Shown piece after piece: positions 5,072 to 36,120 of a DNA stretch of 41,141 bases (positions are counted from its first letter, which is position 1; every line of letters starts with the position of its first letter). Origin of the DNA: a bacterium (GTDB lineage Bacteria; Patescibacteriota; Minisyncoccia; UBA6257; GWB1-50-10); NCBI GenBank assembly GCA_021801565.1, contig JAJYXV010000009.1, forward strand, positions 1-41,141, given 5' to 3'. The notes beneath the pieces are model-generated. The model had not been told where the DNA came from. It saw only the letters and a list, made by a program, of their open reading frames with translations, and searched no databases. A program made the position numbers and the translations under genes.

Positions 5072-5210
5072 TCCAGTAGTAGAAATTCGATTTGTCGCGA
5101 GACGACATATAAAAATAGTAGTTCATATAGGGTTCTATATTTTTACAAAAAATATTGTTTTTATGTATAAGGCGTGTGGTTATTTTTATTATTGAATTTT
5201 CACTACTGGG
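5072..5210. mobile_element. Inverted-repeat (MITE-like) element, decayed copy
   Basis: The left arm (TCCAGTAGTAGAAATTCGA, 5072-5090) and right arm (TTGAATTTTCACTACTGGG, 5192-5210) are inverted copies about 100 bp apart, with the same arm sequence as the elements at 14471, 15767 and 38786. An ATG at 5163 runs in frame to IFTTG at the right end but is broken by a TGA, like a decayed pilin leader. No pilin follows: the element ends at the comF stop codon. The flanks TTATA and TTATG may be a damaged target duplication. Confidence 0.6.
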
Positions 5211-13511: not shown

Positions 13512-14414
13512 ATGACCTCGATAGTTTTCTTTTGCTTATTTATTTTTGGTCTTGCGATCGGGAGTTTTCTCAATGTTCTTATATTTCGTTATTCTCCTGA
13601 AGGGAGGTTTTTTAACATAAAGGATATATTAGGACGATCTCACTGTATGTCATGCCGGAAAACACTTGAAGCAAAAGAACTTATTCCACTTTTTAGCTTC
13701 CTTTTTCTTAGGGGAAGGTGTTCCTCATGCGGGGAAAGAATTTCCCTTCAGTATCCGATTGTCGAATTTTTGAGTGGTGGAATTTTTGTTCTCATTCCAC
13801 TTTTTTTAAACTCGTTTTTTGGAATACGAAGCGTGTTGTTTTTCTCTCTTTTGGCTCCTGGATGGTATTATCTTTTTATTCTTTTGTGGATTCTTATATT
13901 CCTTTCCCTCCTCCTTATTTTTGTTATTGACCTGAAACACTACATTATTCCCGACGGACTTAACATTTTCATTTTTGTTTCTGGTGTGGCACTTACCCTT
14001 CTCTTTGCATTCAATGAGACACACATTCTTCCGTTTCGCGAATCATTTTTGAGAAATTATACACTCGTATTTTCTCCGTTCCAAAATGTATTTTATAATC
14101 ATTTATTGGGATTTTTTGGCGGCGGTCTTTTCTTTCTTTTTTTATTTTTCATAAGCAAGGGAAAGGGAATGGGAATGGGTGATGTAAAACTCGCATTTGC
14201 CTTAGGGATGGTGCTCGGATGGCCTGATATTGTGCTGGTGAGCATGATCGCCTTTATTCTCGGTGGAATATGGGCGGCGATCTTATATTTTTCAAAAAAG
14301 AAAACAATGAGAGATAAACTTCCATTTGCTCCATTCTTTGTTATTGCGTCTGTGATCACGATATTTTTTGGATTTAATCTTATAAAAGGATATTTCCTCC
14401 TTTTTAATCTCTAG
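13512..14414 (+). CDS. pilD: Prepilin peptidase PilD
   Basis: A 300-residue polytopic aspartic protease. The N-terminal domain has the zinc CxxC pairs CMSC and CSSC (about residues 43-75) characteristic of bifunctional peptidase/methylases. The two catalytic aspartates are in DLKHYIIPDG (about 143) and GMGDVKLAFALG (about 220, the GxGD motif). It cleaves prepilin leaders at the membrane and methylates the new N-terminal Phe. It serves the pilin and four minor pilins around it. Confidence 0.95.
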   Translation: MTSIVFFCLFIFGLAIGSFLNVLIFRYSPEGRFFNIKDILGRSHCMSCRKTLEAKELIPLFSFLFLRGRCSSCGERISLQYPIVEFLSGGIFVLIPLFLNSFFGIRSVLFFSLLAPGWYYLFILLWILIFLSLLLIFVIDLKHYIIPDGLNIFIFVSGVALTLLFAFNETHILPFRESFLRNYTLVFSPFQNVFYNHLLGFFGGGLFFLFLFFISKGKGMGMGDVKLAFALGMVLGWPDIVLVSMIAFILGGIWAAILYFSKKKTMRDKLPFAPFFVIASVITIFFGFNLIKGYFLLFNL

Positions 14415-14448: not shown

Positions 14449-14550
14449 ATGAGAAGAGATGATGGGTTTACTCGGCAGTACCCGTCTGCCGTCGGGCGGG
14501 GAAACTCGATATATCACGTTTTTATGGACGACGTGGTTTTATTCGTATAA
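14449..14550 (+). pseudogene. Displaced original start of a minor pilin gene (MRRDDGFT)
   Basis: A short ORF begins 8 bp after an extended -10 box (TGCTAGAAT, 14432-14440) and reads MRRDDGFT before entering the inverted-repeat element at 14471. Joining GGG TTTA on its left to CATTAGTGGAG right of the element recreates MRRDDGFTLVE, a normal prepilin start in the same frame as the gene at 14571. I infer this is the original 5' end of that gene, cut off by the insertion. The rest of the ORF is element sequence. Confidence 0.6.
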
Positions 14551-14621
14551 ATCTATATATTCAAAACAATATGTTTTATAGAAAGAAATATAAAAAAGAC
14601 AATCGAGTTTTCACTACTGGG
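14471..14621. mobile_element. Inverted-repeat element inserted in a minor pilin gene, target duplication TTTA
   Basis: 151 bp bounded by TTTA (14467-14470 and 14622-14625), each preceded by GGG. The right arm is ATCGAGTTTTCACTACTGGG (14602-14621). The left arm is its inverted copy, damaged and split by the 20-bp palindrome CCCGTCTGCCGTCGGGCGGG (14481-14500); without that palindrome the element is 131 bp. It carries TATATT (14556-14561) and an ATG at 14571, so it provides a promoter-like box, a start codon and a 17-residue leader ending FTTG for the pilin gene it entered. Confidence 0.75.
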
Positions 14622-15104
14622 TTTACATTAGTGGAGACTCTCGTCGTGATCGGCATTTTAATGTTGCTTACTACTTCACTTATCGCATACACTCGATCTT
14701 CTGGAAAGCAAATTGTCTTGTATACAGAACAAGCAAAACTCATTGGCGCCTTAAATAAAGCAAAATCATTAGCGCTTCAAAGAAACATGGCAGAAAGCGT
14801 TTGTGCATACGGGATTCGTTTCACGGGGTCTAACACATATGAAATTGTACAAGTTCCGAATATTCAAGTGAGTGGACAGTCATATGCTGCATGTGATGAA
14901 ACGCAGGCGTCATCATACGGAGAGACATATATCATGAGCGCCCCAATAGTTATTTCAAATTCTCCGGGACAAATCACATTTGAGGGTCCGTATATAAAAG
15001 TGCTTGAAGGAGGCAAAACCGTTGAGTTAGAGGTGAGTGGATCGTCCCCACTCCTGAAAGCGGAAGTGGTGGTAAGCGGGATGGGGGGAATTTCAACACA
15101 ATAA
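14571..15104 (+). CDS. Minor pilin / GspH-FimT-like pseudopilin with element-encoded leader
   Basis: A 177-residue prepilin with leader MFYRKKYKKDNRVFTTG and cleavage motif G|FTLVE, then a hydrophobic helix (TLVVIGILMLLTTSLIAYT). The first 17 codons lie wholly inside the inverted-repeat element, whose right end coincides with the Gly codon before the cleavage site. KAKSLALQRNMAESVCAYGIRF resembles the GspH/FimT region. It is probably a priming or minor subunit of the pilus tip. The next gene starts 1 bp after its stop. Confidence 0.82.
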   Translation: MFYRKKYKKDNRVFTTGFTLVETLVVIGILMLLTTSLIAYTRSSGKQIVLYTEQAKLIGALNKAKSLALQRNMAESVCAYGIRFTGSNTYEIVQVPNIQVSGQSYAACDETQASSYGETYIMSAPIVISNSPGQITFEGPYIKVLEGGKTVELEVSGSSPLLKAEVVVSGMGGISTQ

Positions 15105-15105
15105 T

Positions 15106-15627
15106 ATGCATCAACTAATCAGAGACAAAAGCGGAAGTTTAATGGTTGAACTTATGGTAACCGCAAGTCTTATTATGATCGGACTTATAGGGATTTTTTC
15201 TCTCATTATCCACTCAACAAGTATGAATAAAGATGTGGTGCATCGTTTTGAAGCAACATATCTTGCGGCAGAAGGAATCGAAATTATGAAACATGTCATT
15301 GATACAGACGTAGCAATTCCGGATACTGCATTTTTTAATTCAACACTAAATCATGACCAGAATTATGAGGTACAGTATGACACAGATAGAGATCTCGGAC
15401 TGACTGAAATATACGGTTCTTCAACTACGCCTCTGTGGCTCAATGAATCAACAGGACTGTACAGTTATAACAAGGCAGGAAAAGAAACTCCTTATAAACG
15501 AACGGTGGCAGTGGTAAGTGGGAGTAATGAAATAACAGTAAAATCTGAAGTTGAATGGAACGTTGGGGGAGAAAGAAATGTTGTTGATCTTGAAGAGGTA
15601 TTTAAAAATTGGAGAGAAAGAAATTAA
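15106..15627 (+). CDS. Minor pilin / PilV-like pseudopilin
   Basis: 173 residues. The leader MHQLIRDKSG is followed by SLMVELMVTASLIMIGLIGIFSLI, a class III type N-terminus with Ser in place of Phe at +1 and Glu at +5. EATYLAAEGIEIMKHV is typical of PilV/GspI-like minor pilins. Start and stop are packed against neighbouring ORFs. Substitution of Phe+1 by Ser should still permit PilD cleavage, since Gly-1 is the key residue. Confidence 0.75.
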   Translation: MHQLIRDKSGSLMVELMVTASLIMIGLIGIFSLIIHSTSMNKDVVHRFEATYLAAEGIEIMKHVIDTDVAIPDTAFFNSTLNHDQNYEVQYDTDRDLGLTEIYGSSTTPLWLNESTGLYSYNKAGKETPYKRTVAVVSGSNEITVKSEVEWNVGGERNVVDLEEVFKNWRERN

Positions 15628-15630
15628 TAT

Positions 15631-15774
15631 ATGAACGCAAAAAGTAAAAATAATGGGCCTGTCCCGCACTTTTTTGAAATGGGTTTTAAAACTCTTAAAG
15701 ACTTTTTTTTGAAAATAAAGACTACCTTTTCATTAGGTGCGCATATAAGAAAAGGTGCGGGGTTTACCCAGTAG
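15631..15774 (+). pseudogene. Displaced original start of the next minor pilin gene (ends KGAGFTQ)
   Basis: A 47-codon ORF starts 3 bp after the preceding stop, as expected for an operon gene. It ends IRKGAGFTQ followed by TAG, where the last codons lie in the left arm of the element at 15767. Joining its GGGG TTTA to CTCTCGTTGAAC right of the element rebuilds KGAGFTLVEL in frame with the gene at 15837. It is therefore read as the original, unusually long pilin leader. It could still be translated as a free peptide. Confidence 0.55.
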
Positions 15775-15890
15775 TGAAAACTTGGTATGAATAATATCTG
15801 TTAATTTTCATATTTCAAAACAAAATTATTTATCACATGCTGAAGAAATATAAACAACTTTTCACACAACACCAAGTTTCTACTACCGGG
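15767..15890. mobile_element. Inverted-repeat element inserted in a second minor pilin gene, target duplication TTTA
   Basis: 124 bp flanked by TTTA (15763-15766, 15891-15894). The left arm CCCAGTAGTGAAAACTTGGT (15767-15786) and right arm ACCAAGTTTCTACTACCGGG (15871-15890) are inverted copies. Its interior shares CAAAACAA and AGAAATATAAA-like stretches with the 14471 copy around the start codon. It supplies ATG 15837 and an 18-residue leader ending STTG. Confidence 0.78.
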
Positions 15891-16475
15891 TTTACTCTCG
15901 TTGAACTGTTGGTTGCAATGGCGGTATTTGGAATTCTTATGTCGCTTGCAATTGGTGTTTTTGTGAGCGCAATAAAAGCACAAAGAGATCTTGGTGATCT
16001 TATGTCGGTGAATAACAACTTAAATCTTGTGCTTGAACAGATGTCTCGGGAGATGCGCATGGGATATTTCGATGTCTCCCAGTATGAAGCGATTATGGGA
16101 CAAATCAATATCACTCCCTGTCTCTCTTCCCTTTCATTCAGAACAATGCAAACAAATGATCCTAAAACAGAAGGAGAAACAGTAACATATTCTTTTTCGA
16201 GTGCGGATAAAACAATACAAAAAAACGGCGAACCCATTACAGGGAAAAATGTTGCAGTGGAAACGCTTTGTTTTCGGGTGCAACAATATAAGAAATCGAC
16301 GAATCCATCAGCAAATCCTAATTACAACTGTAATCCATGGAGAATTGGAATTTCGCTCGCGGTGAAACCAAAAAACGCAAAATCCGATGTACGGACATAT
16401 ATTGAAACAGCGGTAAGCATGAGAGTATTTCCGATAGAAGTAACAACAGATCCGTATCAATGCAGAAGATCATAA
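15837..16475 (+). CDS. Minor pilin / GspJ-PilW-like pseudopilin with element-encoded leader
   Basis: A 212-residue prepilin: leader MLKKYKQLFTQHQVSTTG, cleavage G|FTLVE, hydrophobic helix (LLVAMAVFGILMSLAIGVFV), then SAIKAQRDLGDLMSVNNNLN and EQMSREMRMG, typical of GspJ/PilW. The leader is encoded by the inverted-repeat element, and the mature protein begins at the first codon outside it. It likely joins the tip complex with the neighbouring minor pilins. Confidence 0.82.
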   Translation: MLKKYKQLFTQHQVSTTGFTLVELLVAMAVFGILMSLAIGVFVSAIKAQRDLGDLMSVNNNLNLVLEQMSREMRMGYFDVSQYEAIMGQINITPCLSSLSFRTMQTNDPKTEGETVTYSFSSADKTIQKNGEPITGKNVAVETLCFRVQQYKKSTNPSANPNYNCNPWRIGISLAVKPKNAKSDVRTYIETAVSMRVFPIEVTTDPYQCRRS

Positions 16476-29586: not shown

Positions 29587-29616
29587 AAAAACGATAGGTA
29601 AACCCTATCGTTTTTT
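29587..29616 (+). terminator. Terminator of tRNA-His
   Basis: AAAAACGATAGG, short loop, CCTATCGTTTTTT. Confidence 0.85.
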
Positions 29617-35065: not shown

Positions 35066-35098
35066 ATGAATCCCGTTAATGATAAATCTTTTGAATAG
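35066..35098 (+). CDS. Ten-codon leaderless ORF before the GIY-YIG gene
   Basis: TGATACAAT (35051-35059), AACGAG, then ATG starting MNPVNDKSFE and TAG; the GIY-YIG start follows 6 bp later. It may be a short translated leader that brings ribosomes to the next start, or simply non-coding leader. Its sequence contains the left inverted-repeat arm. Confidence 0.35.
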   Translation: MNPVNDKSFE

Positions 35099-35366
35099 AT
35101 AAATATGTATTATACTTATATACTACAAAGCATAAAAAATGGAAGGAGGTATACAGGATATACAAAAGATTTACGAAAACGTTTTATTGAGCACAATCGG
35201 AGAAGTGGAAAGAAATATACAAGCAAAGGCGCGCCGTATGAATTAATCTATTATGAAGCTTGTATCAATGAATATGATGCAAAAACTAGGGAACAATATC
35301 TCAAGTCGGGTCCTGGAAAACGATATCTTGCATATCGCCTAAAACGTTTTCTATCATTAACGGGAT
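35070..35366. repeat. 15-bp inverted repeats flanking the GIY-YIG gene
   Basis: ATCCCGTTAATGATA (35070-35084) and TATCATTAACGGGAT (35352-35366) are perfect inverted copies. The right arm overlaps the GIY-YIG stop and the next start codon. The core ATCCCGTTA is also the arm core of the pilT-pilC inverted repeat. Confidence 0.7.
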
Positions 35367-35368
35367 GA
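35105..35368 (+). CDS. Single-domain GIY-YIG nuclease-like protein (UvrC N-terminal/Slx1 type)
   Basis: 87 residues, just the catalytic domain: YYTYILQSIKNGRRYTGYT carries the GIY-YIG-equivalent tyrosines, followed by Arg in DLRKRFIEHN and Glu in REQYLKSGPG. Such small proteins are common in Bacteroidota and Patescibacteria; most are uncharacterised. It is enclosed by 15-bp inverted repeats, and its TGA overlaps the ATG of the next gene (ATGA), so the two are translationally coupled. Confidence 0.9.
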   Translation: MYYTYILQSIKNGRRYTGYTKDLRKRFIEHNRRSGKKYTSKGAPYELIYYEACINEYDAKTREQYLKSGPGKRYLAYRLKRFLSLTG

Positions 35369-36120
35369 ATACACAAATGAAAATTATTATTTCACTTCTT
35401 ATATTTTTTCTCGTTATCGTTGGAATTGTATTTTTTATCTCTCAAAAAAAGGAATCAACTATTTCTGAAAGGAATATACAGGCAATAAGCGAAATTCCTA
35501 CGACTTCAACGCCAATCGTGGGAGGAGATAAGGACGTGCATGGATGCATCGGATCCGCCGGATATACATGGTGCGAAGCAAAACAAAAATGCTTAAGGGT
35601 CTGGGAAGAAAAATGCGAAGCAACGAGCACTCAGATAAAAGTTGATGAGACGGTAAATTGGAAGACTTATAAAAATAACCAATATGGATTTGAATTGAAA
35701 TATCCAGAAACGGCCGCAGTGGTAGAAGGTAAGGAAACATATATATCATTTCCTTTGAGCGATGCAAAACTTTATATGTATGTTGGAAAAAATACATCGG
35801 TTCCGCTTATAGGGACATTTGGGGGACGTTTTGAATATAACCCGAACCAACGGCCGGATTTTATGTTGCTTTCAGAAATAGGGGGTACGTTTACTAAGGA
35901 TTATTTTGCAGTAAGTATGGACGGAAAAAATTGGGATCGGGTAATCAATGCATATAAAGAAAAAGATGGAAATTATTTTATACTTTCGATGTATAACATA
36001 AAACATAATGCGACAAGCGGAAACACTGCAAATATATTTTTGAATGAAATGCGCGATCCACAACATAGTGATGTGAATGTGTTTAATAAAATACTTTCAA
36101 CAATAAAATTTTATAAATAA
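35365..36120 (+). CDS. Exported protein with DxHGCIGSAGYxWC motif and PsbP-like domain
   Basis: 251 residues: N-terminal membrane anchor (about 5-27), a Ser/Thr linker, a Cys motif DVHGCIGSAGYTWCEAKQKC continuing to EEKC (about 57-88) known from many small exported bacterial proteins, and a PsbP-like domain starting YGFELKYPE (about 110). It probably sits on the outer face of the membrane. The start overlaps the GIY-YIG stop; TATCAT 7 bp upstream could also act as a -10 box. Confidence 0.7.
   Translation: MNTQMKIIISLLIFFLVIVGIVFFISQKKESTISERNIQAISEIPTTSTPIVGGDKDVHGCIGSAGYTWCEAKQKCLRVWEEKCEATSTQIKVDETVNWKTYKNNQYGFELKYPETAAVVEGKETYISFPLSDAKLYMYVGKNTSVPLIGTFGGRFEYNPNQRPDFMLLSEIGGTFTKDYFAVSMDGKNWDRVINAYKEKDGNYFILSMYNIKHNATSGNTANIFLNEMRDPQHSDVNVFNKILSTIKFYK

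Follow-up and report, generated by a model that had tools for sequence, protein, structure and literature searches.

How can two pilin genes be interrupted at the very codons where their products are cut, and still encode an unchanged mature protein? The question is raised by a contig of 41,141 nucleotides (JAJYXV010000009.1; the whole contig is here called the window) from the 742-kb genome of a bacterium of the Patescibacteriota (assembly GCA_021801565.1; G000), in which each of two pilin genes has a short inverted-repeat element in its Gly-Phe-Thr codons. The two elements are probably non-autonomous copies, resembling miniature inverted-repeat transposable elements (MITEs), that belong to a group of inverted-repeat mobile elements of very small size, mobilised by a GIY-YIG protein and rebuilding the motifs into which they insert. 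Members of the group have terminal inverted repeats that start with (T/C)CC, and 4 bp of their target are duplicated. Four families of arms occur at pilin sites: A (CCCAGTAGT), B (CCCCGCACC), C (TCCCTCACATAAC) and D (CCCCGTTAGAGA). Genomes, contigs and loci are numbered with G, C and L; G001 is a sister species of the same genus, and the relatives compared are mostly draft genomes.

Both element-bearing genes lie downstream of a prepilin peptidase gene of the A24 family, whose product, judging by its sequence, would be the enzyme that cuts the rebuilt pilin motif. Element 1 (151 bp, at pilin 1) and element 2 (124 bp, at pilin 2) have TTTA on both sides, at 14467-14470 and 14622-14625 and at 15763-15766 and 15891-15894, respectively. 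The sequence confirms their positions and the placing of the duplications in the Gly-Phe-Thr codons, as given in a preliminary description of the window, and also the orphaned start MRRDDGFT at pilin 1 (14449). Deleting an element together with one TTTA joins the orphan start in frame to LVET in pilin 1 and to LVEL in pilin 2, a fusion claimed earlier and reproduced here. The prepilin cleavage signal (GFxxxE) survives insertion: both genes read G/FTLVE, in which the cut is still preceded by Gly and position +5 is still Glu, and the mature pilin is unaltered, as had been proposed. Pilin 2 matches the Pfam N_methyl motif (E 8.1e-7) and scores above the cut-off of TIGR02532, and the N_methyl motif of pilin 1 is weak (E 0.0065, under the cut-off).

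Both elements belong to family A and show the features of MITEs, namely terminal inverted repeats, a TTTA target duplication, multiple copies, short length (124-151 bp) and no transposase gene. The arms of element 2 are 86% complementary across 21 nt. In element 1 a GC-rich hairpin (CCCGTCTGCCGTCGGGCGGG) is inserted in the left arm, which is degenerate and pairs well only in its inner part (GAAACTCGAT). The two elements turn opposite ends to their genes: the GTGAAAA-type end of element 1 points toward pilin 1, and the GTAGAAA-type end of element 2 toward pilin 2. A consensus scan found no promoter-like site on the + strand inside either element, and the suggestion that the promoter is replaced along with the leader is not upheld.

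The history of pilin 2 is longer than was first supposed. Its orphan frame does end in RKGAGFT, as described, but it starts as far upstream as 15631 (MNAKSKNNG-PVPHFFEMGFKTLKDFFLKIKTTFSLGAHIRKGAGFTQ, then a stop) and contains an older inverted repeat, whose right arm (AAAAGGTGCGGGG) is a family-B end. The first 13 arm bases of this B element are complementary at 11/13, and its duplication has decayed to CCTG/TTTA. An exact search for the family-B end found it at more than 100 places among the matches listed for 244 genomes of the order, against three control matches. Pilin 2 was thus hit twice, first by a B element that was read in frame, and then by an A element at the adjoining TTTA. The orthologous pilin 2 of G001 has a family-A element after the orphan start MNTENKKNAGFT and lacks the B element, an intermediate state that supports insertion. 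No family-A arm stands directly before pilin 1 of G001, in the 8 bases visible before the contig end. Given the 4-bp duplications and these two sites in the sister species, the elements are insertions. Some orthologues lack the element, the duplications occur throughout the genome, and a bias toward pilins can be measured; all of these the preliminary description had made points on which its reading could fail.

The closest relative of the pilin 1 element of G000 is the pilin 2 element of G001. Their inner parts are 72% identical, no other copy compared exceeding 57%, and they have a left-arm hairpin in common. A leader-bearing element therefore stands at different pilins in the two species, by transposition or by recombination. 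This kinship is the best argument for the earlier idea that pilin expression units are swapped, although the phenomenon is not specific to pilins and there is no promoter evidence. The GC-rich hairpin itself (CCCGYCTGCCGTCGGGCRGGG; window 14481-14503 and L060), which lies inside the left arm of the A element at both genes, resembles repetitive extragenic palindromic (REP) sequences.

Insertion at pilin starts recurs in relatives. Across 41 genomes of the family, 200 such starts were counted, of which about 160 were listed; the control gave 0. From these, 20 mostly suspicious sites and 20 unsuspicious-looking controls were tested for an inverted repeat ending directly before TTYA. Ten of the 19 testable suspects reach 13/16 (eight with a perfect 4/4 duplication), as against 0/20 controls; a further site, L194, has a 12/16 arm match with a 4/4 duplication. 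Altogether, at least 11 of the roughly 160 listed pilin starts have an inverted repeat that ends exactly at GGN/TTYA together with a 4-bp duplication: seven suspects with perfect duplications, L194, one gene of G037 (TTCA/TTCA) and the two window genes, pilin 1 with its degenerate left arm included. L176 (G107) also reaches the threshold but lies outside the family and is not among them.

In relatives, the reading frame mostly runs straight through the pilin element, as in SGASGFT-PLESVV...SLT-GFTLIEV. An in-frame ATG on the pilin side is present in all four family-A pilin copies and at 0/18 ends of nine intergenic copies in G000. The proposal that elements re-supply a leader thus holds at the two window genes but not for the many pilin copies that are read through, nor for the intergenic copies, and a leader as a general property of the elements is rejected. 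Three pilins of G008 carry nearly identical D units. Two or three D units in tandem, joined by CTCA, also stand before pilins (L191, G008:C21; L188, G008:C8). At L070/L193 (G023:C25), a pilin leader contains three successive GFT motifs (MREGFT-HHRFSLKSGGGFT-PHIKKLRAGFTLIEM), which look like nested old insertions.

Pilin codons are not the only targets. In G000 the family-A arm has 18 matches (up to 3 of 19 bases mismatched) and a reversed-pattern control has 2, which marks the arm as a real repeat. Family-A copies are mostly 124-139 bp long, lie mostly between genes, have unlike ends (CCCAGTAGTGAAAA and CCCAGTAGTAGAAA) and are often flanked by 4-bp direct repeats (TTGA, TCAA, TTTA). Side by side with B elements they occur at L153 (G038:C46), L171 (G001:C46) and L034 (about 1422-1458, G000:C9), separated by a spacer of 3-4 bases (GGTGCGGGG-AAAG-CCCGGTAGTG), as if one had inserted at the duplication of the other.

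For family B, a search of the 244 genomes anchored only on the B end and TTKA listed 52 ends, 21 with TTTA and 31 with TTGA. Among the TTGA-flanked ends, 27/31 continue as TTGAC, and 13 of these 27 have at least 5/6 of TATAAT at a spacing of 15-18, as against 2.7 in shuffles (0/2000). Many intergenic copies thus lie in -35 boxes, restored by the duplication. Start codons are a third target. All nine inverted-repeat elements at GIY-YIG loci with a TGAA/TTCA duplication are bordered by ATGAA at both ends and followed by an open frame, the last A of the element and the duplicated TGAA forming the start of that frame. These elements belong to family D, apart from one of family C. Read by eye, the downstream frames appear to include CTP synthase-like, fmt-like and DnaJ-like genes, several running past the fetched stretch. 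One such D element lies in the window (13/13 arm match, 4/4 duplication, ATGAA at both flanks). A short D copy also ends at the pilC start codon, where the flanks TTCA and TGAA form inverted repeats without a clean direct duplication.

Against this broad distribution, pilin sites still stand out. Of the 21 family-B ends flanked by TTTA, three fall in pilin codons (those of G028 and G227 and the relic in G000), when 0.007 would be expected over all TTTA sites (P 5e-8) and 0.03 over noncoding TTTA sites (P 4e-6), assuming four suitable pilin codons per genome, independent genomes, and site densities extrapolated from the window. For the 10 B ends flanked by TTTAC, 0.10 pilin ends are expected over noncoding TTTAC sites (P 2e-4). 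Elements are at pilin sites above chance. The earlier claim of pilin-site targeting is therefore right in that such insertions recur beyond chance, but most copies are intergenic and related families occupy -35 boxes and start codons; targeting of pilins only is rejected by the genome-wide distribution of copies.

What moves these elements is suggested by longer copies that share these arm types and hold a single gene for a GIY-YIG nuclease of about 85-90 aa. The genome G000 has 15 PF01541 matches. Inspection of 83 GIY-YIG loci placed 20 of them between arms matching at 11/13 or better and with a perfect 4-bp duplication, compared with 2/108 random placements. The lengths of these units cluster at 277-305 bp, and copies are found with A, B, C and D arms. 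Proteins were recovered for 13 of the 20 elements; among the 12 with both a protein and an assigned family, the nearest GIY-YIG relative belongs to the same arm family in 11 (permutation 1/5000). Within the arms inspected, only GIY-YIG reading frames were seen and no DDE, DEDD, HUH, tyrosine or serine transposase; a genome-wide search for transposase families was not made. Its position within the arms and its co-variation with arm family make the GIY-YIG protein the best candidate mobiliser, and we infer that it mobilises the elements. One of the two positive control placements looks like a real element in itself (TAAA/CCCCCACACC..GGTGTGGGGG/TAAA, 284 bp, L236 about 287-570, G026:C25).

GIY-YIG frames in D copies end in ..FLSLTG or ..FLPLTG, with the stop codon TGA coming from ATGA (for three D copies, the script recovered no full-length frame). 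In the window, the TGA of the GIY-YIG gene (35105-35368) is part of the ATGA with which the next gene starts, and the overlap of TGA and ATG at 35066-35369 suggests translational coupling. At pilins, the terminal D codons read SLT-G instead and continue into FTLIE.

A mechanism can be proposed in which the GIY-YIG protein makes a staggered cut at TTNA sites, mobilising both full and short copies. An element with ends ..GGG or ..GGGA would insert, and repair would produce the 4-bp duplication. The downstream side would keep all of its bases, and the element end would supply the missing upstream base or codon, so that the motif is rebuilt. That the motifs are rebuilt is seen in the sequences themselves. 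At pilins, TTTA or TTCA is duplicated in GGN-TTY-AC, and the terminal GGN of the element is the Gly before the cut; the mature protein is unchanged, with only the part removed by prepilin peptidase lengthened or replaced. In -35 boxes, the TTGA of TTGAC is duplicated, and in start codons the terminal A and TGAA give ATGAA. In the window pilins, the family-A left arm stops the old frame and a new ATG inside the element has taken over; selection would then favour a usable leader, in family A an in-frame ATG within the element. The new leaders are presumed to be functional. The observed locations may then reflect both an enzyme preference for TTNA(C) and selection that removes all but self-healing insertions. 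It is possible, though we would stop short of calling it likely, that the elements form a new class of minimal DNA transposon in Patescibacteria (about 280-305 bp, with a GIY-YIG gene as transposing enzyme and 4-bp duplications), which targets and heals start codons, -35 boxes and prepilin cleavage codons, and which in family D takes its stop from the host start codon.

The strongest competing explanation is that these are ordinary MITEs moved in trans by a conventional transposase, the GIY-YIG gene being a passenger, and the pilin, start-codon and -35 positions being a few harmless sites. Conventional MITEs, too, are short and have inverted repeats and 4-bp duplications, TTNA sites are common and most copies are intergenic. 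However, no gene other than GIY-YIG was seen between the arms, where it lies in mostly uniform units (277-305 bp) across families A to D and co-varies with the arms, while pilin sites are over-represented even against noncoding TTTAC alone (P 2e-4, three cases). We regard this explanation as unlikely. It is more improbable still that homologous recombination (gene conversion) between element-carrying genes, rather than repeated insertion, swapped the 5' ends of pilins. Similar elements at paralogous pilins in G008 and G011, and across G000 and G001, could have been copied via the conserved pilin start, and gene conversion may lie behind some copies within genomes; yet pilin sites in different genomes vary in arm family, in orientation and in duplication (TTTA or TTCA), and this, together with the nested insertions at pilin 2 of G000 and pilin 1 of G023, calls for several independent insertions. 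Least probable of all are leader cassettes dedicated to pilins and existing to swap expression units among them, for although the pilin bias, the kinship and same leader start of the elements at G000 pilin 1 and G001 pilin 2, and the D units of G008 would suit them, most copies are away from pilins, the intergenic ones have no in-frame ATG (0/18 ends), and related families sit at -35 boxes and start codons, such as that of a CTP synthase-like gene.

Several points weigh against mobilisation by a GIY-YIG protein with rebuilding of target motifs. The evidence is a comparison of sequences from mostly draft genomes, from which both movement and the link between GIY-YIG gene and arms are deduced, and a transposase acting in trans might yet be at work. 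The suspect pilin sites were picked by eye and the controls chosen by the authors, so that 10/19 shows existence and not a rate, and the enrichment test comprises three pilin ends, of which one is a relic, and treats related genomes as independent. Recognisable elements enclose only about a quarter of the GIY-YIG genes. Duplications are imperfect in several intergenic family-A copies, the B relic, G037 pilin 1 and the pilC copy. Across the phylum, a strict pattern of CCCC..GGGG at pilins was found in 1/380 genomes, but it requires exact ends flanked on either side by TTTA and allows a narrow range of lengths, and says little on frequency; a family-D (GIY-YIG-type) end frame running into a pilin was found in 0/384, a search that also missed known D copies in some of the sampled families. 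Either these patterns are too strict, or the effect is patchy.

Among known systems, homing endonucleases of the GIY-YIG type, whether free-standing or located in group I introns, have both the catalytic domain and the residence at conserved sites in common with the present elements. Homing uses an allelic recipient site and leaves neither a target duplication nor inverted repeats. By comparison, the elements here have 4-bp duplications at many different sites, with no intron involved. GIY-YIG reading frames have been described in rRNA-gene insertions of bacteria of the candidate phyla radiation (CPR), which resemble neither group of introns and whose spread by homing is doubted (PMC11270868). 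This doubt fits the present elements. The CPR hosts and GIY-YIG frames are as here, a text search of that paper finds neither inverted repeats nor pili, and it is no more than a guess that the two are the same elements.

Prokaryotic MITEs (reviewed in PMC10969869) are likewise short, multicopy and mostly intergenic, with terminal inverted repeats and target duplications. Usual MITEs derive from insertion sequences with a known transposase, whereas longer copies with the same arms here hold only GIY-YIG, and the insertions here, unlike those of usual MITEs, rebuild coding or promoter motifs. The IS1111/IS110 elements are site-specific like those described here, but use a DEDD transposase (PMC11187229), none of which was seen between the arms. 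REP and REPIN elements, associated with RAYT tyrosine transposases, are palindromic intergenic repeats too (PMC3116915, PMC2817692), and the left arm of element 1 contains a REP-like hairpin; the present elements differ in their paired terminal arms with duplications.

In the open-access literature (with few subscription papers and no preprints), no inverted-repeat elements with a GIY-YIG gene and no insertions in pilin cleavage codons were found described. We know of no described prokaryotic element for which GIY-YIG serves as the transposition enzyme. If the GIY-YIG protein is indeed the mobiliser, it would be, as far as known, a new type of such enzyme. The proposed explanation, if true, would account for the many small GIY-YIG genes and the odd, repeat-rich pilin leaders of these genomes, and would show how a parasitic element can persist in so compact a genome, through insertions confined to places where a host motif is restored. 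It also calls for caution in annotation, as elements can be the source of pilin leaders and of start codons in these genomes.

Table 1. Positions of pilin-related genes, orphaned frames and inverted-repeat elements in the window (a slash marks the prepilin cut)
Feature	Position	Strand	Basis
Intergenic family-A copy, flanks TATA/TTAT	5072..5210	.	
Short family-D copy, arms TCCCGTTAGAG / CTAACGGGA, last base = A of pilC start codon	11532..11648	.	Sequence
Prepilin peptidase gene (A24 family)	13512..14414	+	Pfam PF06750 E 2e-27, PF01478 E 7.6e-13
Pilin 1, orphaned original start MRRDDGFT, last bases = upstream TTTA copy (14467-14470)	14449..14470	+	Sequence, fusion test
Element 1, family-A inverted repeat in Gly-Phe-Thr codons of pilin 1	14471..14621	.	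Arms, TTTA duplications
Pilin 1, element-encoded leader MFYRKKYKKDNRVFTT-G/FTLVET	14571..15104	+	Open reading frame; weak N_methyl; orthologues in relatives
Pilin 2, orphaned older reading frame MNAKSKNNG(PV)PHFF...IRKGAGFTQ-stop	15631..15774	+	Translation; homologous orphan in G001
Older family-B inverted repeat, read in frame in former pilin 2 leader; right arm AGAAAAGGTGCGGGG	15662..15762	.	Arm matches
Element 2, family-A inverted repeat inserted at TTTA adjoining B element	15767..15890	.	Arms, TTTA duplications
Pilin 2, element-encoded leader MLKKYKQLFTQHQVSTT-G/FTLVEL	15837..16475	+	Pfam N_methyl, TIGR02532
Family-D element, arms TCCCGTTAATGATA, duplication TGAA (35067-35070, 35366-35369), in start codon of gene at 35365	35071..35365	+	
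GIY-YIG nuclease gene of D element, frame ends ..FLSLTG-stop	35105..35368	+	Pfam PF01541 E 9.5e-16

A search for family-D ends with a long pattern gave five places in the 41 genomes; its first letters were too strict and known copies were missed, and the result was not used. One isolated family-D end (GTCTCTAACGGGA/TGAA) lies in the window at 29598, counted on the - strand, and is followed by an open reading frame of 20 codons.

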